This document shows positions 2 to 64,000 of a stretch of 64,000 nt of DNA, in pieces; position 1 is the stretch's first letter; every line of letters starts with the position of its first letter. Source of the DNA: Eledone cirrhosa (lineage: Eukaryota; Mollusca; Cephalopoda; Octopoda; Eledonidae). Location: positions 26,295,515-26,359,514 of the forward strand of contig OZ024748.1 in assembly GCA_964016885.1 (NCBI GenBank). Reading direction: 5' to 3'. Made by a program: the position numbers and the translations under genes. The notes below the pieces were generated by a model. It searched no databases. It saw only the letters and a program-made list of their open reading frames with translations, and was not told the origin of the DNA.

Positions 2-865
2 ATAACAGACATTGAAACAAGTACAGTGGAAAGAACAACACAAGTTACAGATATTGAAACTGAGCGCACAACTCAGACAGAAATTACACCACAACAAACA
101 ACATCTCCTGAAGAAACAACTCTGTCTACTCAGGTAGAGGAAATCGAAAAGGTGACACCAACACAAGTTGCTAGCACAATGCATACATCACCTGAAACAA
201 CAGTTGTTTCATCTCCTGAACACACCTCTATAACACCATCTACACACAAACTTACTAGTATTGAATATACAACTGAGATAACAACTGAAAAATCACTACC
301 TATGACAACACCAACAAGCACAGCAGAAAAGATCACTGAAATTAGAACAGACACAACAGCAACGACATCACAGCTTCCTTCAACAAGTGAAATCCATATA
401 GAAACTCCTAAATCTACTTCTGAACTGCCTCATATAACAGACATTGAAACAAGTACAGTGGAAAGAACAACACAAGTTACAGATATTGAAACTGAGCGCA
501 CAACTCAGACAGAAATTACACCACAACAAACAACATCTCCTGAAGAAACAACTCTGTCTACTCAGGTAGAGGAAATCGAAAAGGTGACACCAACACAAGT
601 TGCTAGCACAATGCATACATCACCTGAAACAACAGTTGTTTCATCTCCTGAACACACCTCTATAACACCATCTACACACAAACTTACTAGTATTGAATAT
701 ACAACTGAGATAACAACTGAAAAATCACTACCTATGACAACACCAACAAGCACAGCAGAAAAGATCACTGAAATTAGAACAGACACAACAGCAACGACAT
801 CACAGCTTCCTTCAACAAGTGAAATCCATATAGAAACTCCTAAATCTACTTCTGAACTGCCTCAT
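2..865 (+). repeat. Two identical 432-bp units at the left edge
   Basis: Units 2-433 and 434-865 look identical base for base, including rare marks not seen elsewhere: EEIEKV instead of EDIEKV, S-T-H-K in place of T-D-E before the LTSIEY motif (one codon longer), EITTEKS, TEIRT, and an ACG Thr codon near 361 and 793. They differ from the unit that follows at 866, so this is a very recent duplication or conversion. The next unit changes QV to QF and QQ to QL. The tract may continue to the left of the window. Confidence 0.9.
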
Positions 866-3800: not shown

Positions 3801-6800
3801 CAACAACATCACAGCTTCCTTCAACAAGTGAAATTCATATTGAAACTCCTAAATCTACTTCTGAACTGCCTCATATAACTGACATTGAAACAAGTACAGT
3901 GGAAAGAACAACACAAGTTACAGATATTGAAACTGAGCGCACAACTCAGACAGAACTTACACCACAACAAACAAGATCTCCTGAAGAAACCACTCTGTCT
4001 ACTCAGGTAGAGGACATCGTAAAGGTGACACCAACACAAGTTGCTAGCACAATGCATACATCACCTGAAACAACAGTTGTTTCATCTCCTGAACACACCT
4101 CTATAACACCTACAGATGAACTTACTAGTATTGAATATACAACTGAGAGATCAACTGAAAAATCACTACCTATGACAACACCTACAAGCACAGCAGAAAA
4201 GATCACTGAAACTAGAACAGACACAACAGCAACAACATCACAGCTTCCTTCAACAAGTGAAATCCATATAGAGACTCATAAATCTACTTCTGAACTGCCT
4301 CATATAAGTGACATTGAAACAAGTACAGTGGAAAGAACAACACATATTACAGATATTGAAACTGAGCGCACAACTCAGACAGAACTTACACCACAACAAA
4401 CAACACCTCCTGAAGAAACCACTCTGTCTACTCAGGTAGAGGACATCGAAAGGGTGACAGCAACACAAGTTGCTAGCACAATGCATACATCACCTGAAAC
4501 AACAGTTGTTTCATCTCCTGAACACACTTCTATGACACCTACACATGAACTCACTATTAAAGAATACAAAACTGAGACATCAACTGAAAAATCACTACCT
4601 ATGACGACACCTACAAGCACATCAGAAAAGATCAATGAAACTAGAACAGACACAACAGCAACAACATCACAGCTTCCTTCAACAAGTGAAATCCATATAG
4701 AAACTCCTAAATCTACTTCTGAAATGCCTCATATAACTGACATTGAAACAAGTACAGTGGAAAGAACAACACAAGTTACAGATATTGAAACTGAGCGCAA
4801 AACTCAGATAGAAATTACACCACAGCAAACAACATCTGCTGAAGAAAAAACACTGTATACTCAGGTAGAGGACTTCGTAAAGGTGACACCAACACAAGTT
4901 GCTAGCACAATGCATACATCACCTGAAACAACAGTTGTTTCATCTCCAGAACACACCTCTATAACACCTACAGATGAACTTACTAGTATTGAATATACAA
5001 CTGAGAGATCAACTGAAAAATCACTACCTATGACAACACCTACAAGCACAGCAGAAAAGATCACTGAAACTAGAACAGACACAGCAGCAACAACATCACA
5101 GCTTCCTTCAACAAGTGAAATCCATATAGAAACTCATAAATCTACTTCTGAACTGCCTCATATAATTGACATTGAAACAAGTACAGTGGAAAGAACAAGA
5201 CAAATTACAGATATTGAAACTGAACGCACAACTCAGACAGAAATTACACCACAACAAACAACATCTCCTGAAGAAACAACTCTGTCTACTCAGGTAGAGG
5301 ACATCGAAAAGGTGACACCAACACAAGTTGCTAGCACAATGCATACATCACCTGAAACAACAGTTGTTTCATCTCCTGAACACACCTCTATAACAATTAC
5401 AGATGAACTTACTAGTATTGAATATACAACTGAGACATCAACTGAAAAACCACTACCTATCAAGACACCTACAAGCACAGCAGAAAAGATCACTGAAACT
5501 AGAACAGACACAACAGCAACAACATCACAGCTTCCTTCAACAAGTGAAATCCATATAGAAACTCCTAAATCTACTTCTGAACTGCCTCATATAACTGACA
5601 TTGAAACAAGTACAGTGGAAAGAACAACACAAATTACAGATATTGAAACTGAACGCACAACTCAGACAGAAATTACACCACAACAAACAACATCTCCTGA
5701 AGAAACAACTCTGTCTACTCAGGTAGAGGACATCGAAAAGGTGACACCAACACAAGTTGCTAGCACAATGCATACATCACCTGAAACAACAGTTGTTTCA
5801 TCTCCTGAACACACCTCTATAACAATTACAGATGAACTTACTAGTATTGAATATACAACTGAGACATCCACTGAAAAACCACTACCTATAAAGACACCTA
5901 CAAGCACAGCTGAAAAGATCACTGAAACTATAACAGACACAACAGCAACAACATCACAGCTTCCTTCAACAAGTGAAATCCATATAGAAACTCCTAAATC
6001 TACTTCTGAACTGCCTCATATAACTGACATTGAAACAAGTACAGTGGAAAGAACAACACAAGTTACAGATATTGAAACTGAACGCACAACTCAGACAGAA
6101 ATTACACCACAACTAACAACATCTCCTGAAGAAACAACTCTGTCTACTCAGGTAGAGGACATCGAAAAGGTGACACCAACAACAGTTGTTTCATCTCCTG
6201 AACACACCTCTATAACACCTACAGATGAACTTACTAGTATTGAATATACAACTGAGACATCAACTGAAAAACCACTACCTATCAAGACACATACAAGCAC
6301 AGCAGAAAAGATCACTGAAACTAGAACAGACACAACAGCAACAACATCACAGGTTCCTTCAACAAGTGAAATCCATATAGAAACTCATAAATCTACTTCT
6401 GAACTGCCTCATATAACTGACATTGAAACAAGTACAGTGGAAAGAACAACACAAGTTACAGATATTGAAACTGAGCACACAACTCAGACAGAAATTACAC
6501 CACAACAAACAACATCTCCTGAAGAAACAACACTGTCTACTCAGGTAGAGGACATCGTAAAGGTGACACCAACACAAGTTGCTAGCACAATGCATACATC
6601 ACCTGAAACAACAGTTTTTTCATCTCCAGAACACACCTCTATAACACCTACAGATGAACTTATTAGTATTGAATATACAACTGAGACATCAACTGAAAAA
6701 CCACTACCTATCAAGACACCTACAAGCACAGCAGAAAAGATCACTGAAACTAGAACAGACACAACAGCAACAACATCACAGCTTCCTTCAACAAGTGAAA

Positions 6801-9800
6801 TCCATATAGAAACTCCTAAATCTACTTCTGAACTGCCTCATATAACTGACGTTGAAACGAGTACAGTGGAAAGAACAACACAAGTTACAGATATTGAAAC
6901 TGAACGCACAACTCAGACAGAAATTACACCACAACTAACAACATCACCTGAAGAAACAACTCTGTCTACTCAGGTAGAGGACATCGAAAAGGTGACACCA
7001 ACAACAGTTGTTTTATCTCCTGAACACACCTCTATAACACCTACAGATGAACTTACTAGTATGGAATATACAACTGAGACATCAACTGAAAAACCACTAC
7101 CTATAAAGACACCTACAAGCACAGCTGAAAAGATCACTGAAACTATAACAGACACAACAGCAACAACATCACAGCTTCCTTCAACAACTGAAATCCATAT
7201 AGAAACTCCTAAATCTACTTCTGAACTGCCTCATATAACTGACATTGAAACAAGTACAGTGGAAAGAACAACACACGTTACAGATATTGAAACTGAACGC
7301 ACAACTCAGACAGAAATTACACCACAACTAACAACATCTCCTGAAGAAACAACTCTGTCTACTCAGGTAGAGGACATCGAAAAGGTGACACCAACAACAG
7401 TTGTTTCATCTCCTGAACACACCTCTATAACACCTACAGCTGAACTTACTAGTATTGAATATACAACTGAGACATCAACTGAAAAACCACTACCTATCAA
7501 GACACCTACAAGCACAGCTGAAAAGATCACTGAAACTATAACAGACACAACAGCAACAACATCACAGCTTCCTTCAACAAGTGAAATCCATATAGAAACT
7601 CATAAATCTACTTCTGAACTGCCTCATATAACAGACATTGAAACAAGTACAATGGAAAGAACAACACAAATTACAGATATTGAAACTGAACGCACAACTC
7701 AGACAGAAATTACACCACAACTAACAACATCTCCTGAAGAAACAACTCTGTCTACTCAGGTAGAGGACATCGAAAAGGTGCCACCAACACAAGTTGCTAG
7801 TACAATGCATACATCACCTGAAAGGACAGTTGTTTCATCTCCAGAACACACCTCTATAACACCTACAGATGAACTTACTAGTATTGAATATAGAACTGAG
7901 ACATCAACTGAAAAATCACTACCTACGATAACACCTAGAAGCACAGCAGAAAAGACCACTGAAACTATAACAGACACAACAGCAACAACATCACAGCTTC
8001 CTTCAACAAGTGAAATCCATATAGAAACTCCTAAATCTACTTCTGAACTGCCTCATATAACTGACATTGAAACAAGTACAGCGGAAAGGACAACACAAAT
8101 TACAGATATTGAAACTGAACGCACAACTCAGACAGAAATTAGACCACAACTAACAACATCTCCTGAAGAAACAACTCTGTCTACTCAGGTAGAGGACATC
8201 GTAAAGGTGACACCAACACAAATTGCTAGCACAATGCATACATCACCTGAAACAACAGTTGTTTCATCTCCAGAACACACCTCTATAACACCTACAGATG
8301 AACTTAGTAGTATTGAATATACAACTGTGACATCAACTGAAACACCACTACCTATAAAGACACCTACAAGCACAGCTGAAAAGATCACTGAAACTATAAC
8401 AGACACAACAGCAACAACATCACAGCTTCCTTCAACAAGTGAAATCCATATAGAAACTCCTAAATCTAGTTCTGAACTGCCTCATATAACTGACATTGAA
8501 ACAAGTACAGTGGAAAGAAAAACACAAGTTACAGATATTGAAACTGAGCGCACAACTCGGACAGAAATTACATCACAACAAACAACATCTCCTGAAGAAA
8601 CAACACTGTCTACTCAGGTAGAGGACATCGTAAAGGTGACACCAACACAAGTTGCTAGCACAATGCATACATCACCTGAAACAACAGTTGTTTCATCTCC
8701 AGAACACACCTCTATAACACCTACAGATGAACTTACTAGTATTGAATATAGAACTGAGACATCAACTGAAAAATCACTACCTACGATAACACCTACAAAC
8801 ACAGCAGAAAAGATCACTGAAACTATAATAGACACAACAGCAACAACATCACAGCTTCCTTCAACAAGTGAAATCCATATAGAAACTCCTAAATCTACTT
8901 CTGAACTGCCTCATATAACTGACATTGAAACAAGTACAGTGGAAAGAACAACACAAGTTACAGATATTGAAACTGAGCGCACAACTCAGACAGAAATTAC
9001 ACCACAACAAACAACATCTCCTGAAGAAACATCACTGTCTACTCAGGTAGAGGACATCGTAAAGGTGACACCAACACAAGTTGCTAGCACAATGCATACA
9101 TCACCTGAAACGACAGTTGTTTCATCTCCAGAACACACCTCTATAACACCTACAGATGAACTTACTAGTATTGAATATACAACTGAGACATCAACTGAAA
9201 AACCACTACCTATAAAGACACCTACAAGCACAGCAGAAAAGATCACTGAAACTAGAACAGACACAACAGCAACAACATCACAGCTTCCTTTAACAAGTGA
9301 AATCCATATAGAAACTCCTAAATCTACTTCTGAACTGCCTCATATAACAGACATTGAAACAAGTACAATGGAAAGAACAACACAAATTACAGATATTGAA
9401 ACTGAACGCACAACTCAGACAGAAATTACACCACAACTAACAACATCTCCTGAAGAAACAACTCTGTCTACTCAGGTAGAGGACATCGTAAAGGTGACAC
9501 CAACACAAGTTGCTAGCACAATGCATACATCACCTGAAACAACAGTTGTTTCATCTCCAGAACACACCTCTATAACACCTACAGATGAACTTACTAGTAT
9601 TGAATATACAACTGAGACATCAACTGAAAAACCACTACCTATAAAGACACCTACAAGCACAGCTGAAAGGATCACTGAAACTAGAACAGACACAACAGCA
9701 ACAACATCACAGCTTCCTTCAACAAGTGAAATCCATATAGAAACTCCTAAATCTACTTCTGAACTGCCACATATAACAGACATTGAAACAAGTACAATGG

Positions 9801-12800
9801 AAAGAACAACACAAATTACAGATATTGAAACTGAACGCACAACTCAGACAGAAATTACACCACAACTAACAACATCTCCTGAAGAAACAACTCTGTCTAC
9901 TCAGGTAGAGGACATTGAAAAGGTGACACCAACACAAGTTGCTAGCACAATGCATACATCACCTGAAACAACAGTTGTTTCGTCCCCAGAACACGCCTCT
10001 TTAACACCTACACATGAACTTACTAGTATTGAATATACAACTGAGACATCAACTGAAAAACCACTACCTATAAAGACACCTACAAGCACAGCTGAAAATA
10101 TCACTGAAACTATAACAGACACAACAGCAACAACATCACAGCTTCCTTCAACAAGTGAAATCCATATAGAAACTCCTAAATCTACTTCTGAACTGCCTCA
10201 TATAACTGACATTGAAACAAGTACAGTGGAAAGAACAACACAAATTACAGATATTGAAACTGAACGCACAACTCAGACAGAAATTAGACCACAACTAACA
10301 ACATCTCCTGAAGAAACAACTCTGTCTACTCAGGTAGAGGACATCGAAAGGTTGACACCAACACAAGTTGCTAGCACAATGCATACATCACCTGAAACAA
10401 CAGTTGTTTCATCTCCAGAACACACCTCTATAACACCTACAGATGAACTTACTAGTATTGAATATACAACTGAGACATCAACTGAAAAACCACTACCTAT
10501 AAAGACACCTACAAGCACAGCAGAAAAGATCACTGAAACTAGAACAGACACAACAGCAACAACATCACAGCTTCCTTCAACAAGTGAAATCCATATAGAA
10601 ACTCCTAAATCTACATCTGAACTGCCTCATATAACTGACATTGAAACAAGTACAGTGGAAAGAACAACACAAGTTACAGATATTGAAACTGAGCGCACAA
10701 CTCAGACAGAAATTACACCACAACAAACAACATCTCCTGAAGAAACAACACTGTCTACTCAGGTAGAGGACATCGTAAAGGTGACAGCAACACAAGTTGG
10801 TAGCACAATGCATACATCACCTGAAACGACAGTTGTTTCATCTCCTGAACACACCTCTATAACACCTACAGATGAACATACTAGTATTGAATATACAACT
10901 GAGACATCAACTGAAAAACCACTACCTATAAAGACACCTACAAGCACAGCTGAAAAGATCACTGAAACTATAACAGACACAACAGCAACAACATCACAGC
11001 TTCCTTCAACAACTGAAATCCATATAGAAACTCCTAAATCTACTTCTGAACTGCCTCATATAACTGACATTGAAACAAGTACAGTGGAAAGAACAACACA
11101 CGTTACAGATATTGAAACTGAACGCACAACTCAGACAGAAATTACACCACAACTAACAACATCTCCTGAAGAAACAACTCTGTCTACTCAGGTAGAGGAC
11201 ATCGAAAAGGTGACACCAACAACAGTTGTTTCATCTCCTGAACACACCTCTATAACACCTACAGATGAACTTACTAGTATTGAATATACAACTGAGACAT
11301 CAACTGAAAAACCACTACCTATCAAGACACCTACAAGCACAGCTGAAAAGATCACTGAAACTATAACAGACACAACAGCAACAACATCACAGCTTCCTTC
11401 AACAAGTGAAATCCATATAGAAACTCATAAATCTACTTCTGAACTGCCTCATATAACAGACATTGAAACAAGTACAATGGAAAGAACAACACAAATTACA
11501 GATATTGAAACTGAACGCACAACTCAGACAGAAATTACACCACAACTAACAACATCTCCTGAAGAAACAACTCTGTCTACTCAGGTAGAGGACATCGAAA
11601 AGGTGCCACCAACACAAGTTGCTAGTACAATGCATACATCACCTGAAAGGACAGTTGTTTCATCTCCAGAACACACCTCTATAACACCTACAGATGAACT
11701 TACTAGTATTGAATATAGAACTGAGACATCAACTGAAAAATCACTACCTACGATAACACCTAGAAGCACAGCAGAAAAGACCACTGAAACTATAACAGAC
11801 ACAACAGCAACAACATCACAGCTACCTTCAACAAGTGAAATCCATATAGAAACTCCTAAATCTACTTCTGAACTGCCTCATATAACTGACATTGAAACAA
11901 GTACAGCGGAAAGGACAACACAAATTACAGATATTGAAACTGAACGCACAACTCAGACAGAAATTACACCACAACTAACAACATCTCCTGAAGAAACAAC
12001 TCTGTCTACTCAGGTAGAGGACATCGTAAAGGTGACACCAACACAAATTGCTAGCACAATGCATACATCACCTGAAACAACAGTTGTTTCATCTCCAGAA
12101 CACACCTCTATACCACCTACAGATGAAATTACTAGTATTGAATATACAACTGAGACATCAACTGAAAAACCACTACCTATAAAGACACCTACAAGCACAG
12201 CAGAAAAAATCACTGAAACTAGAACAGACACAACAGCAACAACATCACAGCTTCCTTTAACAAGTGAAATCCATATAGAAACTCCTAAATCTACTTCTGA
12301 ACTGCCTCATATAACTGACATTGAAACAAGTACAGTGGAAAGAACACAAATTACAGATATTGAAACTGAACGCACAACTCAGACAGAAATTACACCACAA
12401 CTAACAACATCTCCTGAAGAAACAACTCTGTCTACTCAGGTAGAGGACATCGAAAGGGTGACACCAACACAAGTTGCTAGCACAATGCATACATCACCTG
12501 AAACAACAGTTGTTTCATCTCCAGAACACACCTCTATAACACCTACAGATGAACTTAGTAGTATTGAATATACAACTGTGACATCAACTGAAACACCACT
12601 ACCTATAAAGACACCTACAAGCACAGCTGAAAAGATCACTGAAACTATAACAGACACAACAGCAACAACATCACAGCTTCCTTCAACAAGTGAAATCCAT
12701 ATAGAAACTCCTAAATCTAGTTCTGAACTGCCTCATATAACTGACATTGAAACAAGTACAGTGGAAAGAACAACACAAGTTACAGATATTGAAACTGAGC

Positions 12801-15800
12801 GCACAACTCGGACAGAAATTACATCACAACAAACAACATCTCCTGAAGAAACAACACTGTCTACTCAGGTAGAGGACATCGTAAAGGTGACACCAACACA
12901 AGTTGCTAGCACAATGCATACATCACCTGAAACAAAAGTTGTTTCATCTGAACACACCTCTATAACACCTACAGATGAACTTACTAGTATTGAATATAGA
13001 ACTGAGACATCAACTGAAAAATCACTACCTACAATAACACCTACAACCACAGCAGAAAAGATCACTGAAACTAGAACAAACACAACACCAACAACATCAC
13101 AGCTTCCTTCAACAAGTGAAATCCATATAGAAACTCCTAAATCTACTTCTGGACTGCCTCATATAACTGTCATTGAAACAAGTACAGTGGAAAGAACAAC
13201 ACAAGTTACAGATATTGAAACTGAGCGCACAACTCAGACAGAAATTACACCACAACAAACAACATCTCCTGAAGAAACAACACTGTCTACTCAAGTAGAG
13301 GACATCGTAAAGGTGACACCAACACAAGTTGCTAGCACAATGCATACATCACCTGAAACAACAGTTGTTTCATCTCCAGAACACACCTCTATAACACCTA
13401 CAGATGAACTTACTAGTATTGAATATACAACTGAGACATCAACTGAAAAACCACTACCTATAAAGACACCTACAAGCACAGCTGAAAGGATCACTGAAAC
13501 TAGAACAGACACAACAGCAACAACATCACAGCTTCCTTCAACAAGTGAAATCCATATAGAAACTCCTAAATCTACTTCTGAACTGCCTCATATAACTGAC
13601 ATTGAAACAAGTACAGCGGAAAGGACAACACAAATTACAGATATTGAAACTGAACGCACAACTCAGACAGAAATTACACCACAACTAACAACATCTCCTG
13701 AAGAAACAACTCTGTCTACTCAGGTAGAGGACATCGTAAAGGTGACACCAACACAAATTGCTAGCACAATGCATACATCACCTGAAACAACAGTCGTTTC
13801 ATCTCCAGAACACACCTCTATACCACCTACAGATGAAATTACTAGTATTGAATATACAACTGAGACATCAACTGAAAAACCACTACCTATAAAGACACCT
13901 ACAAGCACAGCAGAAAAGATCACTGAAACTAGAACAGACACAACAGCAACAACATCACAGCTTCCTTTAACAAGTGAAATCCATATAGAAACTCCTAAAT
14001 CTACTTCTGAACTGCCTCATATAACTGACATTGAAACAAGTACAGTGGAAAGAACAACACAAATTACAGATATTGAAACTGAACGCACAACTCAGACAGA
14101 AATTACACCACAACTAACAACATCTCCTGAAGAAACAACTCTGTCTACTCAGGTAGAGGACATCGAAAGGGTGACACCAACACAAGTTGCTAGCACAATG
14201 CATACATCACCTGAAACAACAGTTGTTTCATCTCCAGAACACACCTCTATAACACCTACAGATGAACTTAGTAGTATTGAATATACAACTGTGACATCAA
14301 CTGAAACACCACTACCTATAAAGACACCTACAAGCACAGCTGAAAAGATCATTGAAACTATAACAGACACAACAGCAACAACATCACAGCTTCCTTCAAC
14401 AAGTGAAATCCATATAGAAATTCCTAAATCTAGTTCTGAACTGCCTCATATAACTGACATTGAAACAAGTACAGTGGAAAGAACAACACAAGTTACAGAT
14501 ATTGAAACTGAGCGCACAACTCGGACAGAAATTACATCACAACAAACAACATCTCCTGAAGAAACAACACTGTCTACTCAGGTAGAGGACATCGTAAAGG
14601 TGACACCAACACAAGTTGCTAGCACAATGCATACATCACCAGAAACAAAAGTTGTTTCATCTGAACACACCTCTATAACACCTACAGATGAACTTACTAG
14701 TATTGAATATAGAACTGAGACATCAACTGAAAAATCACTACCTACAATAACACCTACAACCACAGCAGAAAAGATCACTGAAACTAGAACAAACACAACA
14801 CCAACAACATCACAGCTTCCTTCAACAAGTGAAATCCATATAGAAACTCCTAAATCTACTTCTGAACTGCCTCATATAACTGACATTGAAACAAGTACAG
14901 TGGAAAGAACAACACAAGTTACAGATATTGAAACTGAGCGCACAACTCAGACAGAAATTACACCACAACAAACAACATCTCCTGAAGAAACAACACTGTC
15001 TACTCAGGTAGAGGACATCGTAAAGGTGACACCAACACAAGTTGCTAGCACAATGCATACATCACCTGAAACAACAGTTGTTTCATCTCCAGAACACACC
15101 TCTATAACACCTACAGATGAACTTACTAGTATTGAATATACAACTGAGACATCAACTGAAAAACCACTACCTATAAAGACACCTACAAGCACAGCTGAAA
15201 GGATCACTGAAACTAGAACAGACACAACAGCAACAACATCACAGCTTCCTTCAACAAGTGAAATCCATATAGAAACTCCTAAATCTACTTCTGAACTGCC
15301 TCATATAACTGACATTGAAACAAGTACAATGGAAAGAACAACACAAATTACAGATATTGAAACTGAACGCACAACTCAGACAGAAATTAGACCACAACTA
15401 ACAACATCTCCTGAAGAAACAACTCTGTCTACTCAGGTAGAGGACATCGAAAGGGTGACACCAACACAAGTTGCTAGCACAATGCATACATCACCTGAAA
15501 CAACAGTTGTTTCATCTCCAGAACACACCTCTATAACACCTACAGATGAACTTACTAGTATTGAATATACAACTGAGACATCAACTGAAAAACCACTACC
15601 TATAAAGACACCTACAAGCACAGCAGAAAAGATCACTGAAACTAGAACAGACACAACAGCAACAACATCACAGCTTCCTTCAACAAGTGAAATCCATATA
15701 GAAACTCCTAAATCTACATCTGAAATGCCTCATATAACTGACATTGAAACAAGTACAGTGGAAAGAACAACACAAGTTACAGATATTGAAACTGAGCGCA

Positions 15801-18800
15801 CAACTCAGACAGAAATTACACCACAACAAACAACATCTCCTGAAGAAACAACACTGTCTACTCAGGTAGAGGACATCGTAAAGGTGACAGCAACACAAGT
15901 TGCTAGCACAATGCATACATCACCTGAAACGACAGTTGTTTCATCTCCTGAACACACCTCTATAACACCTACAGATGAACTTACTAGTATTGAATATACA
16001 ACTGAGACATCAACTGAAAAACCACTACCTATAAAGACACCTACAAGCACAGCTGAAAAGATCACTGAAACTATAACAGACACAACAGCAACAACATCAC
16101 AGCTTCCTTCAACAAGTGAAATCCATATAGAAACTCCTAAATCTACTTCTGACCTGCCTCATATAACTGACATTGAAACAAGTACAGTGGAAAGAACAAC
16201 ACACGTTACAGATATTGAAACTGAACGCACAACTCAGACAGAAATTACACCACAACTAACAACATCTCCTGAAGAAACAACTCTGTCTACTCAGGTAGAG
16301 GACATCGAAAAGGTGACACCAACAACAGTTGTTTCATCTCCTGAACACACCTCTATAACACCTACAGATGAACTTACTAGTATTGAATATACAACTGAGA
16401 CATCAACTGAAAAACCACTACCTATCAAGACACCTACAAGCACAGCTGAAAAGATCACTGAAACTATAACAGACACAACAGCAACAACATCACAGCTTCC
16501 TTCAACAAGTGAAATCCATATAGAAACACATAAATCTACTTCTGAACTGCCTCATATAACAGACATTGAAACAAGTACAATGGAAAGAACAACACAAATT
16601 ACAGATATTGAAACTGAACGCACAACTCAGACAGAAATTACACCACAACTAACAACATCTCCTGAAGAAACAACTTTGTCTACTCAGGTAGAGGACATCG
16701 AAAAGGTGCCACCAACACAAGTTGCTAGTACAATGCATACATCACCTGAAACGACAGTTGTTTCATCTCCAGAACACACCTCTATAACACCTACAGATGA
16801 ACTTAGTAGTATTGAATATACAACTGTGACATCAACTGAAACACCACTACCTATAAAGACACCTACAAGCACAGCTGAAAAGATCACTGAAACTATAACA
16901 GACACAACAGCAACAACATCACAGCTTCCTTCAACAAGTGAAATCCATATAGAAACTCCTAAATCTACTTCTGAACTGCCTCATATAACTGACATTGAAA
17001 CAAGTACAGTGGAAAGAACAACACAAGTTACAGATATTGAAACTGAGCGCACAACTCGGACAGAAATTACATCACAACAAACAACATCTCCTGAAGAAAC
17101 AACACTGTCTACTCAGGTAGAGGACATCGTAAAGGTGACACCAACACAAGTTGCTAGCACAATGCATACATCACCTGAAACAACAGTTGTTTCATCTCCA
17201 GAACACACCTCTATAACACCTACACATGAACTTACTAGTATTGAATATAGAACTGAGACATCAACTGAAAAATCACTACCTACGATAACACCTACAAGCA
17301 CAGCTGAAAAGATCACTGAAACTAGAACATACACAACACCAACAACATCACAGCTTCCTTCAACAAGTGAAATCCATATAGAAACTCCTAAATCTACTTC
17401 TGAACTGCCTCATATAACAGACATTGAAACAAGTACAATGGAAAGAACAACACAAATTACAGATCTTGAAACTGAACGCACAACTCAGACAGAAATTACA
17501 CCACAACTAACAACATCTCCTGAAGAAACAACTCTGTCTACTCAGGTAGAGGACATCGAAAAGGTGACACCAACACAAGTTGCTAGCACAATGCATACAT
17601 CACCTGAAACAAAAGTTGTTTCATCTGAACACACCTCTATAACACCTACAGATGAACTTACTAGTATTGAATATAGAACTGAGACATCAACTGAAAAATC
17701 ACTACCTACGATAACACCTACAAGCACAGCAGAAAAGATCACTGAAACTAGAACAGACACAACACCAACAACATCACAGCTTCCTTCAACAAGTGAAATC
17801 CATATAGAAACTCCTAAATCTACTTCTGAACTGCCTCATATAACTGACATTGAAACAAGTACAGCGGAAAGGACAACACAAATTACAGATATTGAAACTG
17901 AACGCACAACTCAGACAGAAATTACACCACAACTAACAACATCTCCTGAAGAAACAACTCTGTCTACTCAGGTAGAGGACATCGTAAAGGTGACACCAAC
18001 ACAAATTGCTAGCACAATGGATACATCACCTGAAACAACAGTTGTTTCATCTCCAGAACACACCTCTATACCACCTACAGATGAAATTACTAGTATTGAA
18101 TATACAACTGAGACATCAACTGAAAAACCACTACCTATAAAGACACCTACAAGCACAGCAGAAAAAATCACTGAAACTAGAACAGACACAACAGCAACAA
18201 CATCACAGCTTCCTTTAACAAGTGAAATCCATATAGAAACTCCTAAATCTACTTCTGAACTGCCTCATATAACTGACATTGAAACAAGTACAGTGGAAAG
18301 AACACAAATTACAGATATTGAAACTGAACGCACAACTCAGACAGAAATTACACCACAACTAACAACATCTCCTGAAGAAACAACTCTGTCTACTCAGGTA
18401 GAGGACATCGAAAGGGTGACACCAACACAAGTTGCTAGCACAATGCATACATCACCTGAAACAACAGTTGTTTCATCTCCAGAACACACCTCTATAACAC
18501 CTACAGATGAACTTAGTAGTATTGAATATACAACTGTGACATCAACTGAAACACCACTACCTATAAAGACACCTACAAGCACAGCTGAAAAGATCACTGA
18601 AACTATAACAGACACAACAGCAACAACATCACAGCTTCCTTCAACAAGTGAAATCCATATAGAAACTCCTAAATCTAGTTCTGAACTGCCTCATATAACT
18701 GACATTGAAACAAGTACAGTGGAAAGAACAACACAAGTTACAGATATTGAAACTGAGCGCACAACTCGGACAGAAATTACATCACAACAAACAACATCTC

Positions 18801-21800
18801 CTGAAGAAACAACACTGTCTACTCAGGTAGAGGACATCGTAAAGGTGACACCAACACAAGTTGCTAGCACAATGCATACATCACCTGAAACAAAAGTTGT
18901 TTCATCTGAACACACCTCTATAACACCTACAGATGAACTTACTAGTATTGAATATAGAACTGAGACATCAACTGAAAAATCACTACCTACAATAACACCT
19001 ACAACCACAGCAGAAAAGATCACTGAAACTAGAACAAACACAACACCAACAACATCACAGCTTCCTTCAACAAGTGAAATCCATATAGAAACTCCTAAAT
19101 CTACTTCTGGACTGCCTCATATAACTGTCATTGAAACAAGTACAGTGGAAAGAACAACACAAGTTACAGATATTGAAACTGAGCGCACAACTCAGACAGA
19201 AATTACACCACAACAAACAACATCTCCTGAAGAAACAACACTGTCTACTCAAGTAGAGGACATCGTAAAGGTGACACCAACACAAGTTGCTAGCACAATG
19301 CATACATCACCTGAAACAACAGTTGTTTCATCTCCAGAACACACCTCTATAACACCTACAGATGAACTTACTAGTATTGAATATACAACTGAGACATCAA
19401 CTGAAAAACCACTACCTATAAAGACACCTACAAGCACAGCTGAAAGGATCACTGAAACTAGAACAGACACAACAGCAACAACATCACAGCTTCCTTCAAC
19501 AAGTGAAATCCATATAGAAACTCCTAAATCTACTTCTGAACTGCCTCATATAACTGACATTGAAACAAGTACAGCGGAAAGGACAACACAAATTACAGAT
19601 ATTGAAACTGAACGCACAACTCAGACAGAAATTACACCACAACTAACAACATCTCCTGAAGAAACAACTCTGTCTACTCAGGTAGAGGACATCGTAAAGG
19701 TGACACCAACACAAATTGCTAGCACAATGCATACATCACCTGAAACAACAGTTGTTTCATCTCCAGAACACACCTCTATACCACCTACAGATGAAATTAC
19801 TAGTATTGAATATACAACTGAGACATCAACTGAAAAACCACTACCTATAAAGACACCTACAAGCACAGCAGAAAAGATCACTGAAACTAGAACAGACACA
19901 ACAGCAACAACATCACAGCTTCCTTTAACAAGTGAAATCCATATAGAAACTCCTAAATCTACTTCTGAACTGCCTCATATAACTGACATTGAAACAAGTA
20001 CAGTGGAAAGAACAACACAAATTACAGATATTGAAACTGAACGCACAACTCAGACAGAAATTACACCACAACTAACAACATCTCCTGAAGAAACAACTCT
20101 GTCTACTCAGGTAGAGGACATCGAAAGGGTGACACCAACACAAGTTGCTAGCACAATGCATACATCACCTGAAACAACAGTTGTTTCATCTCCAGAACAC
20201 ACCTCTATAACACCTACAGATGAACTTAGTAGTATTGAATATACAACTGTGACATCAACTGAAACACCACTACCTATAAAGACACCTACAAGCACAGCTG
20301 AAAAGATCATTGAAACTATAACAGACACAACAGCAACAACATCACAGCTTCCTTCAACAAGTGAAATCCATATAGAAATTCCTAAATCTAGTTCTGAACT
20401 GCCTCATATAACTGACATTGAAACAAGTACAGTGGAAAGAACAACACAAGTTACAGATATTGAAACTGAGCGCACAACTCGGACAGAAATTACATCACAA
20501 CAAACAACATCTCCTGAAGAAACAACACTGTCTACTCAGGTAGAGGACATCGTAAAGGTGACACCAACACAAGTTGCTAGCACAATGCATACATCACCAG
20601 AAACAAAAGTTGTTTCATCTGAACACACCTCTATAACACCTACAGATGAACTTACTAGTATTGAATATAGAACTGAGACATCAACTGAAAAATCACTACC
20701 TACAATAACACCTACAACCACAGCAGAAAAGATCACTGAAACTAGAACAAACACAACACCAACAACATCACAGCTTCCTTCAACAAGTGAAATCCATATA
20801 GAAACTCCTAAATCTACTTCTGAACTGCCTCATATAACTGACATTGAAACAAGTACAGTGGAAAGAACAACACAAGTTACAGATATTGAAACTGAGCGCA
20901 CAACTCAGACAGAAATTACACCACAACAAACAACATCTCCTGAAGAAACAACACTGTCTACTCAGGTAGAGGACATCGTAAAGGTGACACCAACACAAGT
21001 TGCTAGCACAATGCATACATCACCTGAAACAACAGTTGTTTCATCTCCAGAACACACCTCTATAACACCTACAGATGAACTTACTAGTATTGAATATACA
21101 ACTGAGACATCAACTGAAAAACCACTACCTATAAAGACACCTACAAGCACAGCTGAAAGGATCACTGAAACTAGAACAGACACAACAGCAACAACATCAC
21201 AGCTTCCTTCAACAAGTGAAATCCATATAGAAACTCCTAAATCTACTTCTGAACTGCCTCATATAACTGACATTGAAACAAGTACAATGGAAAGAACAAC
21301 ACAAATTACAGATATTGAAACTGAACGCACAACTCAGACAGAAATTAGACCACAACTAACAACATCTCCTGAAGAAACAACTCTGTCTACTCAGGTAGAG
21401 GACATCGAAAGGGTGACACCAACACAAGTTGCTAGCACAATGCATACATCACCTGAAACAACAGTTGTTTCATCTCCAGAACACACCTCTATAACACCTA
21501 CAGATGAACTTACTAGTATTGAATATACAACTGAGACATCAACTGAAAAACCACTACCTATAAAGACACCTACAAGCACAGCAGAAAAGATCACTGAAAC
21601 TAGAACAGACACAACAGCAACAACATCACAGCTTCCTTCAACAAGTGAAATCCATATAGAAACTCCTAAATCTACATCTGAAATGCCTCATATAACTGAC
21701 ATTGAAACAAGTACAGTGGAAAGAACAACACAAGTTACAGATATTGAAACTGAGCGCACAACTCAGACAGAAATTACACCACAACAAACAACATCTCCTG

Positions 21801-24800
21801 AAGAAACAACACTGTCTACTCAGGTAGAGGACATCGTAAAGGTGACAGCAACACAAGTTGCTAGCACAATGCATACATCACCTGAAACGACAGTTGTTTC
21901 ATCTCCTGAACACACCTCTATAACACCTACAGATGAACTTACTAGTATTGAATATACAACTGAGACATCAACTGAAAAACCACTACCTATAAAGACACCT
22001 ACAAGCACAGCTGAAAAGATCACTGAAACTATAACAGACACAACAGCAACAACATCACAGCTTCCTTCAACAAGTGAAATCCATATAGAAACTCCTAAAT
22101 CTACTTCTGACCTGCCTCATATAACTGACATTGAAACAAGTACAGTGGAAAGAACAACACACGTTACAGATATTGAAACTGAACGCACAACTCAGACAGA
22201 AATTACACCACAACTAACAACATCTCCTGAAGAAACAACTCTGTCTACTCAGGTAGAGGACATCGAAAAGGTGACACCAACAACAGTTGTTTCATCTCCT
22301 GAACACACCTCTATAACACCTACAGATGAACTTACTAGTATTGAATATACAACTGAGACATCAACTGAAAAACCACTACCTATCAAGACACCTACAAGCA
22401 CAGCTGAAAAGATCACTGAAACTATAACAGACACAACAGCAACAACATCACAGCTTCCTTCAACAAGTGAAATCCATATAGAAACACATAAATCTACTTC
22501 TGAACTGCCTCATATAACAGACATTGAAACAAGTACAATGGAAAGAACAACACAAATTACAGATATTGAAACTGAACGCACAACTCAGACAGAAATTACA
22601 CCACAACTAACAACATCTCCTGAAGAAACAACTTTGTCTACTCAGGTAGAGGACATCGAAAAGGTGCCACCAACACAAGTTGCTAGTACAATGCATACAT
22701 CACCTGAAACGACAGTTGTTTCATCTCCAGAACACACCTCTATAACACCTACAGATGAACTTAGTAGTATTGAATATACAACTGTGACATCAACTGAAAC
22801 ACCACTACCTATAAAGACACCTACAAGCACAGCTGAAAAGATCACTGAAACTATAACAGACACAACAGCAACAACATCACAGCTTCCTTCAACAAGTGAA
22901 ATCCATATAGAAACTCCTAAATCTACTTCTGAACTGCCTCATATAACTGACATTGAAACAAGTACAGTGGAAAGAACAACACAAGTTACAGATATTGAAA
23001 CTGAGCGCACAACTCGGACAGAAATTACATCACAACAAACAACATCTCCTGAAGAAACAACACTGTCTACTCAGGTAGAGGACATCGTAAAGGTGACACC
23101 AACACAAGTTGCTAGCACAATGCATACATCACCTGAAACAACAGTTGTTTCATCTCCAGAACACACCTCTATAACACCTACACATGAACTTACTAGTATT
23201 GAATATAGAACTGAGACATCAACTGAAAAATCACTACCTACGATAACACCTACAAGCACAGCTGAAAAGATCACTGAAACTAGAACATACACAACACCAA
23301 CAACATCACAGCTTCCTTCAACAAGTGAAATCCATATAGAAACTCCTAAATCTACTTCTGAACTGCCTCATATAACAGACATTGAAACAAGTACAATGGA
23401 AAGAACAATACAAATTACAGATCTTGAAACTGAACGCACAACTCAGACAGAAATTACACCACAACTAACAACATCTCCTGAAGAAACAACTCTGTCTACT
23501 CAGGTAGAGGACATCGAAAAGGTGACACCAACACAAGTTGCTAGCACAATGCATACATCACCTGAAACAAAAGTTGTTTCATCTGAACACACCTCTATAA
23601 CACCTACAGATGAACTTACTAGTATTGAATATAGAACTGAGACATCAACTGAAAAATCACTACCTACGATAACACCTACAAGCACAGCAGAAAAGATCAC
23701 TGAAACTAGAACAGACACAACACCAACAACATCACAGCTTCCTTCAACAAGTGAAATCCATATAGAAACTCCTAAATCTACTTCTGAACTGCCTCATATA
23801 ACTGACATTGAAACAAGTACAGTGGAAAGAACAACACAAGTTACAGATATTGAAACTGAGCGCACAACTCAGACAGAAATTACACCACAACAAACAACAT
23901 CTCCTGAAGAAACAACACTGTCTACTCAGGTAGAGGACATCGTAAAGGTGACACCAACACAAGTTGCTAGCACAATGCATACATCACCTGAAACAACAGT
24001 TGTTTCATCTCCAGAACACACCTCTATAACACCTACAGATGAACTTACTAGTATTGAATATACAACTGAGACATCAACTGAAAAACCACTACCTATAAAT
24101 ACACCTACGAGCACAGCTGAAAAGATCACTGAAACTAGAACAGACACAACAGCAACAACATCACAGCTTCGTTCAACAAGTGAAATCCATATAGAAACTC
24201 CTAAATCTACTTCTGAACTGCCTCATATAACTGACATTGAAACAAGTACAGTGGAAAGAACAACACAAATTACAGATATTGAAATTGAACGCACAACTCA
24301 GACAGAAATTACACCACAACTAACAACATCTCCTGAAGAAACAACTCTGTCTACTCAGGTAGAGGACATCGAAAATGTGACACCAACACAAGTTGCTAGC
24401 ACAATGCATATATCACCTGAAACGACAGTTGTTTCATCTCCAGAACTCACCTCCATAACACCTACAGATGAACTTACTAGTATTGAATATACAACTGCGA
24501 CATCAACTGAAAAACCACTACCTATAAAGACACCTACAAGCACAGCTGAAAAGATCACTGAAACTATAACAGACACAACAGCAACAACATCACAGCTTCC
24601 TTCAACAAGTGAAATCCATATAGAAACTCCTAAATCTACTTCTGAACTGCCTCATATAACTGACATTGAAACAAGTACAATGGAAAGAACAACACAAATT
24701 ACAGATATTGAAACTGAACGCACAACTCAGACAGAAATTACACCACAACTAACAACATCTCCTGAAGAAACAACTCTGTCTACTCAGGTAGAGGACATCG

Positions 24801-27800
24801 AAAAGGTGACACCAACACAAGTTGCTAGCACAATGCATACATCACCTGAAACAAAAGTTGTTTCATCTCCTGAACACACCTCTATAACACTTACAGATGA
24901 ACTTACTAGTATTGAATATAGAACTGAGACATCAACTGAAAAATCACTACCTACGATAACACCTACAAGCACAGCAGAAAAGATCACTGAAACTAGAACA
25001 GACACAACACCAACAACATCATCGCTTCCTTCAACAAGTGAAATCCATATAGAAACTCCTAAATCTACTTCTGAACTGCCTCATATAACTGACATTGAAA
25101 CAAGTACAGTGGAAAGAACAACACAAATTACAGATATTGAAACTGAACGCACAACTCAGACAGAAATTACACCACAACTAACAACATCTCCTGAAGAAAC
25201 AACTCTGTCTACTCAGGTAGAGGACATCGAAAGGGTGACACCAACACAAGTTGCTAGCACAATGCATACATCACCTGAAACAACAGTTGTTTCATCTCCA
25301 GAATACACCTCTATAACACCTACAGATGAACTTACTAGTATTGAATATACAACTGAGACATCAACTGAAAAACCACTACCTATAAAGACACCTACAAGCA
25401 CAGCTGAAAAGATCACTGAAACTATAACAGACACAACAGCAACAACAACACAGCTTCCTTCAACAAGTGAAATCCATATAGAAACTCCTAAATCTACTTC
25501 TGAACTGCCTCATATAACTGACATTGAAACAAGTACAGTGGAAAGAACAACACAAGTTACAGATATTGAAACTGAGCGCACAACTCAGACAGAAATTACA
25601 CCACAACAAACAACATCTCCTGAAGAAACAACACTGTCTACTCAGGTAGAGGACATCGTAAAGGTGACACCAACACAAGTTGCTAGCACAATGCATACAT
25701 CACCTGAAACAACAGTTGTTTCATCTGAACACACCTCTATAACACCTACAGATGAACTTACTAGTATTGAATATAGAACTGAGACATCAACTGAAAAATC
25801 ACTACCTACGATAACACCTACAAGCACAGCAGAAAAGATCACTGAAACTAGAACAGACACAACACCAACAACATCACAGCTTCCTTCAACAAGTGAAATC
25901 CATATAGAAACTCCTAAATCTACTTCTGAACTGCCTCATATAACTGACATTGAAACAAGTACAGTGGAAAGAACAACACAAGTTACAGATATTGAAACTG
26001 AGCGCACAACTCAGACAGAAATTACACCACAACAAACAACATCTCCTGAAGAAACAACACTGTCTACTCAGGTAGAGGACATCGTAAAGGTGACACCAAC
26101 ACAAGTTGCTAGCACAATGCATACATCACCTGAAACAACAGTTGTTTCATCTCCAGAACACACCTCTATAACACCTACAGATGAACTTACTAGTATTGAA
26201 TATACAACTGAGACATCAACTGAAAAACCACTACCTATAAAGACACCTACAAGCACAGCTGAAAAGATCACTGAAACTAGAACAGACACAACAGCAACAA
26301 CATCACAGCTTCCTTCAACAAGTGAAATCCATATAGAAACTCCTAAATCTACTTCTGAACTGCCTCATATAACTGACATTGAAACAAGTACAATGGAAAG
26401 AACAACACAAATTACAGATATTGAAACTGAACGAACAACTCAGACAGAAATTACACCACAACTAACAACATCTCCTGAAGAAACAACTCTGTCTACTCGG
26501 GTAGAGGACATTGAAAAGGTGACACCAACACAAGTTGCTAGCACAATGCATACATCACCTGAAACAACAGTTGTTTCGTCTCGAGAACACACCTCTATAA
26601 CACCTACACATGAACTTACTAGTATTGAATATACAACTGAGACATCAACTGAAAAACCACTACCTATAAAGACACCTACAAGCACAGCTGAAAAGATCAC
26701 TGAAACTAGAACAGACACAACAGCAACAACATCACAGCTTCCTTCAACAAGTGAAATCCATATAGAAACTCCTAAATCTACTTCTGAACTGCCTCATATA
26801 ACTGACATTGAAACAAGTATAGTGGAAAGAACAACACAAATTACAGATATTGAAACTGAACGCACAACTCAGACAGAACTTACACCACAACTAACAACAT
26901 CTCCTGAAGAAACAACTCTGTCTACTCAGGTAGAGGACATTGAAAAGGTGACACCAACACAAGTTGCTAGCACAATGCATATATCACCTGAAACAACAGT
27001 TGTTTCATCTCCAGAACACACCTCTATAACACCTACAGATGAACTTACTAGTATTGAATATACAACTGAGACATCAACTGAAAAATCACTACCTACGATA
27101 ACACCTACAAGCACAGCTGAAAATATCACTGAAACTATAACAGACACAACAGCAACAACATCACAGCTTCCTTCAACAAGTGAAATCCATATAGAAACTC
27201 CTAAATCTACTTCTGAACTGCCTCATATAACTGACATTGAAACAAGTACAGTGGAAAGAACAACACAAGTTACAGATATTGAAACTGAACGCACAACTCA
27301 GACAGAAATTACACCACAACTAACAACATCTCCTGAAGAAACAACTCTGTCTACTCAGGTAGAGGACATCGAAAAGGTGACACCAACACAAGTTGCTAGC
27401 ACAATGCATACATCACCTGAAACAAAAGTTGTTTCATCTGAACACACCTCTATAACACCTACAGATGAACTTACTAGTATTGAATATAGAACTGAGACAT
27501 CAACTGAAAAATCACTACCTACGATAACACCTACAAGCACAGCAGAAAAGATCACTGAAACTAGAACAGACACAACACCAACAACATCACAGCTTCCTTC
27601 AACAAGTGAAATCCATATAGAAACTCCTAAATCTACTTCTGAACTGCCTCATATAACTGACATTGAAACAAGTACAGTGGAAAGAACAAGACAAGTTACA
27701 GATATTGAAACTGAGCGCACAACTCAGACAGAAATTACACCACAACAAACAACATCTCCTGAAGAAACAACACTGTCTACTCAGGTAGAGGACATCGTAA

Positions 27801-54800: not shown

Positions 54801-57800
54801 TAGAGGACATCGAAAAGGTGACACCAACACAAGTTGCTAGCACAATGCATACATCACCTGAAACAACAGTTGTTTCATCTCCAGAACACACCTCTATAAC
54901 ACCTACAGATGAACTTACTAGTATTGAATATACAACTGAGACATCAACTGAAAAACCACTACCTATAAAGACACCTACAAGCACAGCTGAAAAGATCACT
55001 GAAACTAGAACAGACACAACAGCAACAACATCACAGCTTCCTTCAACAAGTGAAATCCATATAGAAAATCCTAAATCTACTTCTGAACTGCCTCATATAA
55101 CAGACATTGAAATAAGTACAATGGAAAGAACAACACAAATTACAGATATTGAAACTGAACGCACAACTCAGATAGAAATTACACCACAACAAACAACATC
55201 TCCTGAAGAAACAACACTGTCTACTCAGGTAGAGGACATCGTAAAGGTGACACCAACACAAGTTGCTAGCACAATGCATACATCACCTGAAACAACAGTT
55301 GTTTCATCTCCAGAACACACCTCTATAACACCTACAGATGAACTTATTAGTATTGAATATACAACTGAGACATCAACTGAAAAACCACTACCTATCAAGA
55401 CACCTACAAGCACAGCAGAAAAGATCACTGAAACTAGAACAGACACAACAGCAACAACATCACAGCTTCCTTCAACAAGTGAAATCCATATAGAAACTCC
55501 TAAATCTACTTCTGAACTGCCTCATATAACTGACATTGAAACAAGTACAGTGGAAAGAACAACACAAATTACAGATATTGAAACTGAACGCACAACTCAG
55601 ACAGAAATTACACCACAACTAACAACATCTCCTGAAGAAACAACTCTGTCTACTCAGGTAGAGGACATCGAAAAGGTGACACCAACACAAGTTGCTAGCA
55701 CAATGCATACATCACCTGAAACAACAGTTGTTTCATCTCCTGAACACACCTCTATAACAATTACAGATGAACTTACTAGTATTGAATATACAACTGAGAC
55801 ATCAACTGAAAAACCATTACCTATCAAGACACCTACAAGCACAGCTGAAAAGATCACTGAAACTAGAACAGACACAACAGCAACAACATCACAGCGTCCT
55901 TCAACAAGTGAAATCCATATAGAAACTCCTAAATCTACTTCTGAACTGCCTCATATAACTGACATTGAAACAAGTACAGTGGAAAGAACAACACAAATTA
56001 CAGATATTGAAACTGAACGCACAACTCAGACAGAAATTACACCACAACTAACAACATCTCCTGAAGAATCAACTCTGTCTACTCAGGTAGAGGACATCGA
56101 AAAGGTGACACCAACAACAGTTGTTTCATCTCCTGAACACACCTCTATAACACCTACAGATGAACTTACTAGTATTGAATATACAACTGAGACATCAACT
56201 GAAAAACCACTACCTATCAAGACACATACAAGCACAGCAGAAAAGATCACTGAAACTAGAACAGACACAATAGCAACAACATCACAGCTTCCTTCAACAA
56301 GTGAAATCCATATAGAAACTCCTAAATCTACTTCTGAACTGCCTCATATAACTGACATTGAAACAAGTACAGTGGAAAGAACAACACAAGTTACAGATAT
56401 TGAAACTGAGCGCACAACTCAGACAGAAATTACACCACAACAAACAACATCTCCTGAAGAAACAACACTGTCTACTCAGGTAGAGGACATCGTAAAGGTG
56501 ACAGCAACACAAGTTGCTAGCACAATGCATACATCACCTGAAACGACAGTTGTTTCATCTCCTGAACACACCTCTATAACACCTACAGATGAACATACTA
56601 GTATTGAATATAGAACTGAGACATCAACTGAAAAACCACTACCTATAAAGACACCTACAAGCACAGCTGAAAAGATCACTGAAACTATAACAGACATAAC
56701 AGCAACAACATCACAGCTTCCTTCAAGAAGTGAAATGCATATAGAAACTCCTAAATCTACTTCTGAACTGCCTCATATAACTGACATTGAAACAAGTACA
56801 GTGGAAAGAACAACACACGTTACAGATATTGAAACTGAACGCACAACTCAGACAGAAATTACACCACAACTAACAACATCTCCTGAAGAAACAACTCTGT
56901 CTACTCAGGTAGAGGACATCGAAAAGGTGACACCAACACAAGTTGCTAGCACAATGCATACATCACCTGAAACAACAGTTGTTTCATCTCCAGAACACAC
57001 CTCTATAACACCTACAGATGAACTTATTAGTATTGAATATACAACTGAGACATCAACTGAAAAACCACTACCTATCAAGACACCTACAAGCACAGCAGAA
57101 AAGATCACTGAAACTAGAACAGACACAACAGCAACAACATCACAGCTTCCTTCAACAAGTGAAATCCATATAGAAACTCCTAAATCTACTTCTGAACTGC
57201 CTCATATAACTGACATTGAAACAAGTACAGTGGAAAGAACAACACAAATGACAGATATTGAAACTGAACGCACAACTCAGACAGAAATTACACCACAACT
57301 AACAACATCTCCTGAAGAAACAACTCTGTCTACTCAGATAGAGGACATCGAAAGGGTGACACCAACACAAGTTGCTAGCACAATGCATACATCACCTGAA
57401 ACAACAGTTGTTTCATCTCCAGAACACACCTCTATAACACCTACAGATGAACTTACTAGTATTGAATATACAACTGTGACATCAACTGAAACACCACTAC
57501 CTATAAGGACACCTACAAGCACAGCTGAAAAGATCACTGAAACTATAACAGACACAACAGCAACAACATCACAGCTTCCTTCAACAAGTGAAATCCATAT
57601 AGAAACTCCTAAATCTACTTCTGAACTGCTTCATATAACTGACATTGAAACAAGTACAGTGGAAAGAACAACACAAGTTACAGATATTGAAACTGAGCGC
57701 ACAACTCGGACAGAAATTACATCACAACAAACAACATCTCCTGAAGAAACAACACTGTCTACTCAGGTAGAGGACATCGTAAAGGTGACACCAACACAAG

Positions 57801-64000: not shown

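Follow-up and report, generated by a model that had tools for sequence, protein, structure and literature searches.

What kind of gene, if it is one, leaves a single reading frame open across 64 kb of DNA? The window, by which we mean the whole 64,000-nucleotide stretch analysed here, carries no stop in the translation of the 21,333 codons of frame 2, which lacks both ends (Table 1), and the preliminary description of this DNA was right in claiming that the frame is open throughout. No start, stop, or non-repeat flank occurs within the 64,000 bases. If the frame is translated, its product exceeds 21,333 residues. Judging from the features of the sequence, we think it likely that the window is the exon, of at least 21,333 codons, that encodes the PTS (Pro/Thr/Ser) repeats of a giant eukaryotic mucin, secreted or membrane-tethered.

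An open frame made of tandem units

The whole window was identified by a tandem repeat finder as one tandem array with a period of 429, and 149 peptide anchors delimit 148 complete units (124 of 143 residues, 14 of 142, 7 of 131, and 3 of 144), the usual unit being 143 residues (429 nt) long. The consensus unit obtained by aligning the units is TPKSTSELPHITDIETSTVERTTQITDIETERTTQTEITPQLTTSPEETTLSTQVEDIEKVTPTQVASTMHTSPETTVVSSPEHTSITPTDELTSIEYTTETSTEKPLPIKTPTSTAEKITETITDTTATTSQLPSTSEIHIE. The mean pairwise nucleotide identity among units is 96.2% (range 90.0-100%), and the GC content is even, ranging from 38.1 to 38.6% across sixteen 4-kb blocks. Two tryptic peptides predicted in silico recur often along the array, TPTSTAEK 104 times and TTQITDIETER 73 times. 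Shorter ancestral sub-repeats within the unit are not claimed, as the best internal match was equalled by 506 of 1,000 shuffles.

The copy number of such an array could be misjudged, given exact repeats of up to 3,655 bp (the two copies of the longest one are 5,958 bp apart), and a shorter real array might have been inflated by false duplication during assembly. We regard such an artefact as very improbable, since no exact repeat is longer than 3,655 bp and 124 of the 148 units have distinct DNA sequences.

The openness of frame 2 is far beyond chance, since shuffling the 429-nt consensus unit 5,000 times at the mononucleotide level never gave an open frame, even over one unit. The other five frames contain 2,535 (+1), 1,110 (+3), and, on the reverse strand, 1,037, 450, and 2,087 stops, and the longest open stretch of the reverse strand is 142 codons. 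Across the 64 kb of the + strand, the donor-like motif GTRAGT and the hexamer AATAAA are both absent, and ATTAAA occurs four times. These absences are compatible with a block that escapes cuts by splicing and 3'-end formation, and they count as one observation rather than 150, because one unit is repeated about 150 times. The word "intronless" in the preliminary description is supported for the window only, where the repeat is never interrupted and the + strand has no GTRAGT. On the - strand, GTRAGT is found 147 times, about once per unit, probably as a by-product of the sequence.

Table 1. Coordinates of the features discussed in the text (positions in the 64,000-nucleotide window).
Feature	Position	Strand	Basis or remark
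Uninterrupted open reading frame, 21,333 codons, ends missing	2..64000	+	0 stops in frame 2
148 complete tandem units, partial units either side	404..63610	+	Peptide anchors, tandem repeat finder, alignment
Longest exact repeat, copy 1 (3,655 bp)	13796..17450	+	
Longest exact repeat, copy 2 (3,655 bp)	19754..23408	+	Likely trace of recent multi-unit exchange
Seven 393-nt units	within about 5785-7796, 10825-11621, 15928-16724, 21886-22682, 55720-56516		
First ten complete units, more diverged than interior	404..4702	+	Predicted near 5' array edge

Selection on the reading frame

A unit that is open by chance stays open only until mutations build up, and the differences between copies therefore serve as a coding test. 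The distinct single-base variants number 261 and comprise 195 non-synonymous ones, 65 synonymous ones, and one nominal stop, against 188.8, 62.8, and 9.3 expected from the mutational spectrum. The nominal stop is the intermediate of a two-base codon change from CAG to TCG (unit 24626-25054), and the frame contains no actual stop codon. Parsimony on a tree of the distinct units gave 354 non-synonymous events, 143 synonymous events, and one nominal stop, presumably the same CAG to TCG intermediate, with no reconstructed stop codon (expected 360.5, 120.1, and 17.4, respectively). The Poisson probability of zero stops is 9e-5 for the distinct variants and 2.8e-8 for the tree events; the former figure is the safer one, because parsimony overcounts events on recombining repeats. 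When the 148 units are aligned without regard to frame, 24 indel occurrences of four kinds appear (3, 36, 3, and 3 nt), all multiples of 3. The distance from one copy of a 20-mer to the next, taken 31,351 times over the 300 commonest 20-mers, is likewise always a multiple of 3. The missing stops and the multiple-of-3 indels among copies that differ from one another show that selection keeps the frame open.

The amino-acid sequence is another matter. Amino-acid changes accumulate near the neutral rate in both the distinct variants and the tree events, and the evidence against strict amino-acid constraint is as clear as that for openness, so that it is stops, frame, and composition, rather than a low dN/dS, that argue for coding. 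Of the 181 non-synonymous variants left when 14 T-S swaps are set aside, 79 fall in codons for Thr, Ser, Asp, and Glu, where 53.8% were expected (p = 0.007 in one uncorrected test); these residues are thus replaced less often than predicted, and perhaps selection also favours these residues rather than an exact sequence. A homogenised tandem array whose amino acids change almost neutrally does resemble satellite DNA, in which case the 429-nt unit would be non-coding and free of stops in one frame by chance. We give this explanation hardly any credence, in view of zero stops where 9.3 to 17.4 were expected, of indels that come in four kinds and never break the frame, and of a frame composition far from that of shuffled bases: Thr, Ser, and Pro make up 49.7% of the unit, compared with 26.1 +/- 3.3% when its bases are shuffled.

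The roughly 150 in-frame copies amount to an internal experiment on selection, in which stops and frameshifts are absent and amino acids drift almost freely. This outcome lends support to the view that what is preserved in a mucin repeat is composition and length, not exact sequence.

Composition, relatives, and the mucin reading

The translation of frame 2 is dominated by Thr (6,309 residues), followed by Glu (2,900), Ser (2,436), Ile (1,832), and Pro (1,693), and it has only four Gly, one Cys, and no Trp. The array unit is unusually acidic compared with mucin repeats, with 3,637 acidic residues in the frame against 1,195 Lys and Arg. Only 2,887 of the 8,745 Ser and Thr residues have Pro at -1 or within +3, which, like the acidity, counts against the mucin reading. 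PTS regions have been delimited by Ser+Thr of at least 20% and Pro of at least 5% (Lang et al., as quoted in PMC2515642); the frame has 41.0% Ser+Thr and 7.9% Pro overall, and 21,220 of its 21,234 100-residue windows reach both values. An alternative rule given in the same source asks for Ser+Thr above 25% and at least four repeats (PMC2515642), which compares with 41.0% and 148 complete units here. The repeats lie in one uninterrupted coding block over 64 kb, as in canonical mucins, the exon boundaries being beyond the window.

An AlphaFold2 model of two units, built with no alignment, has a mean pLDDT of 41.9 and no residue at or above 70, a very low confidence such as would be seen for a disordered chain. 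Weak strands that recur once per unit in this model were left uninterpreted. No signal peptide, SEA, VWD, or CysD domain, or transmembrane segment was found in the window, which consists of the repeat array only, and with one Cys in 21,333 residues the array has no place for a VWD, CysD, or cystine-knot domain.

In a mucin of this kind, the N- and C-terminal domains would lie outside the window, and the chain would enter the secretory pathway by means of an N-terminus beyond it. Many of the 8,745 Ser and Thr residues may be O-GalNAc sites, and the glycans together with the net negative charge would keep the disordered chain extended, giving a hydrated, negatively charged bottlebrush that could serve as a barrier, in lubrication, or in adhesion. 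An extended chain measures 0.25-0.34 nm per residue, which would make this segment about 5-7 micrometres long.

The same acidity suggests another product, namely a secreted, phosphorylated structural protein (a glue, a silk-like, or a mineral-binding protein) in which Ser-x-Glu would be phosphorylated and calcium-binding and O-glycans would be sparse. Acidic residues outnumber the basic ones by the counts given above, the frame holds 733 S-x-E motifs, and giant repetitive glue genes do exist: the spider AgSp1 gene is described as having a coding sequence of 42,270 bp in two exons with a central intron and a product that is likely O-glycosylated (PMC6553539). AgSp1 is like the array in being a giant repetitive gene for a secreted, likely O-glycosylated protein, as is proposed here. 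The two differ in that the AgSp1 repeats are Gly/Pro-rich with about 22% Gly and 17.8% Ser+Thr (PMC6553539), whereas the window is one uninterrupted repeat block with nearly no Gly and 41.0% Ser+Thr. The dominant residue is Thr, not the Ser of S-x-E, and PTS composition prevails nearly everywhere, and we consider such a structural protein rather unlikely. The S-x-E motifs are possible sites of secretory-kinase phosphorylation beside the likely O-glycosylation.

Homologues were sought widely. Some 5.8 billion protein predictions from public genomes and metagenomes yielded none, in a search that is weak for low-complexity sequence and covers few animal genes. The candidates scored in the homologue searches numbered 7,993 (none at E <= 0.001) and 7,962 (none at E <= 1). 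In viral contigs, one pattern had 0 matches and another had 30, none of them confirmed, and no relative was found in phages. A degenerate pattern matched 107 stretches in prokaryote genome contigs, with one match apiece in the 80 listed, which we read, from the pattern counts alone, as chance. The lack of relatives in these mainly prokaryotic, viral, and metagenomic collections is expected for an animal gene and is no proof of one.

Among profile matches, Pfam DUF7109 (48.7 bits) and HPS6 (40.5 bits) scored above their cut-offs of 27 in residues 1-1,500, and both were judged spurious because the stretches concerned are of Thr/Glu-rich low complexity and no other search supported them. The one NCBIfam match of a 700-residue piece (E 0.027) reached 13.3 bits, below the cut-off of 650, and was discarded; a 700-residue piece had no match in the PDB. 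Rfam searches at the gathering threshold and tRNA searches found nothing.

The CpG observed/expected ratio over the window is 0.196, and the consensus unit has 2 CpG against 13.7 expected. None of its 41 NCR codons ends in G (thus no NCG codon), compared with 8 of its 31 NAR codons. This depletion suggests a methylated host genome of vertebrate-like character, and we incline to an animal, on evidence that is one ancestral unit deep. It is not expected in a fly genome.

These two lines of evidence bear on the proposal that the array is the stalk of a Thr-rich cell-surface adhesin (flocculin-type) of a fungus, protist, or bacterium, which would be of record length. Adhesins of these organisms do have Thr-rich tandem-repeat stalks, and their genes are often intronless. 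The proteins of public genomes and metagenomes, the viral contigs, and the phages yielded no relative, however, and the CpG ratio points to a methylated genome, if only from one ancestral unit, so that we hold an adhesin to be distinctly improbable.

Size and growth of the array

Titin has many exons and folded Ig and Fn3 domains, and it shares only its protein size class with the array. No Pfam match to Ig or Fn3 was found in residues 1-1,500 of the 21,333, the remainder being the same repeat, and titin or a PEVK-like elastic protein was rejected on the composition, the absence of folded domains from the scanned piece, and the low-confidence model. The preliminary description had presented the frame as a single block of at least 21,333 codons and had measured it against titin. 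The block, kept open by selection, is supported; the yardstick is misleading, because a single huge repeat exon is the canonical mucin design (PMC13345508, preprint).

According to that preprint, all canonical mucins have a single large exon for their repeats, the proteins predicted from human MUC12 alleles reach 23,080 residues, and the MUC12 exon is said to be, in some people, the largest of all exons that code for protein (PMC13345508). PTS exons of 39,267 bp in MUC3B and 32,428 bp in the MUC12 of T2T-CHM13 are reported elsewhere (PMC9578598). The array resembles human MUC12 and the membrane mucins MUC3A, MUC3B, and MUC17 in being one uninterrupted Ser/Thr/Pro-rich tandem-repeat exon, and, unlike MUC3, for which a 17-residue unit is given (PMC9578598), it has a Glu-rich unit of 143 residues, and no terminal domains are seen. 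The window is longer than the mucin exon lengths stated in these two sources (PMC13345508, PMC9578598), but the exon of the longest MUC12 allele, judging from its 23,080 residues, would be of the same order. Our literature searches found no mucin exon larger than this one, which is no proof of absence from print. Drosophila mucins (Muc14A and others, and Dumpy, which is Mur24F) are listed as having 300-23,000 residues, several without a conserved domain (PMC2515642), and the array is like them, by description, as a PTS repeat protein. Bacterial proteins larger than eukaryotic ones are mentioned as well (PMC11573180).

Because of the one-exon design of mucins and the 23,080 residues of MUC12, the architecture of the array is already known and only its size is near the record, and the array would be a further mucin-type repeat exon at the top of the size range of its kind. 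Gene finders and short-read assemblies easily miss such arrays, and how large animal proteins can become is poorly known as a result. If transcript and flanks agree, the locus would test the limits of splicing, translation, and secretion on a coding block of at least 64 kb.

The array would grow and homogenise through unequal crossing-over and conversion between repeats, with selection acting mainly on the open frame and on the density of Ser, Thr, and acidic residues. The similarity of units peaks at lags of 14, 4, 10, 3, and 18 (z 8.4, 7.8, 5.9, 5.3, and 5.0 against permuted order) and drops slightly with distance (Spearman -0.16). These peaks and the 3,655-bp duplicate fit repeated unequal exchange of multi-unit blocks.

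The two edges of the array differ. Measured against the consensus of units 30-117, the first ten complete units are 95.0% identical and units 118-137 are 97.5% identical (p = 0.0008), whereas the last ten have 97.9% identity to this interior consensus (p = 0.55), with no decay at the right edge. In about half of the human mucins, repeats at the boundaries are reported to have degenerated more than those inside (PMC13345508, preprint). Because of the divergence at the left end without decay at the right, and of this degeneration in human mucins, the 5' boundary of the array probably lies near the left end of the window, and the array probably runs on rightward.

Two minor observations concern the layout of the units. 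Across positions 404-63610, a higher-order periodicity makes units 14, 4, 10, 3, or 18 apart more alike than adjacent ones. Seven scattered units of 393 nt have a 36-nt (12-codon) deletion in common, with short near-repeats at the deletion edges, and its scatter among the units likely marks past exchange.
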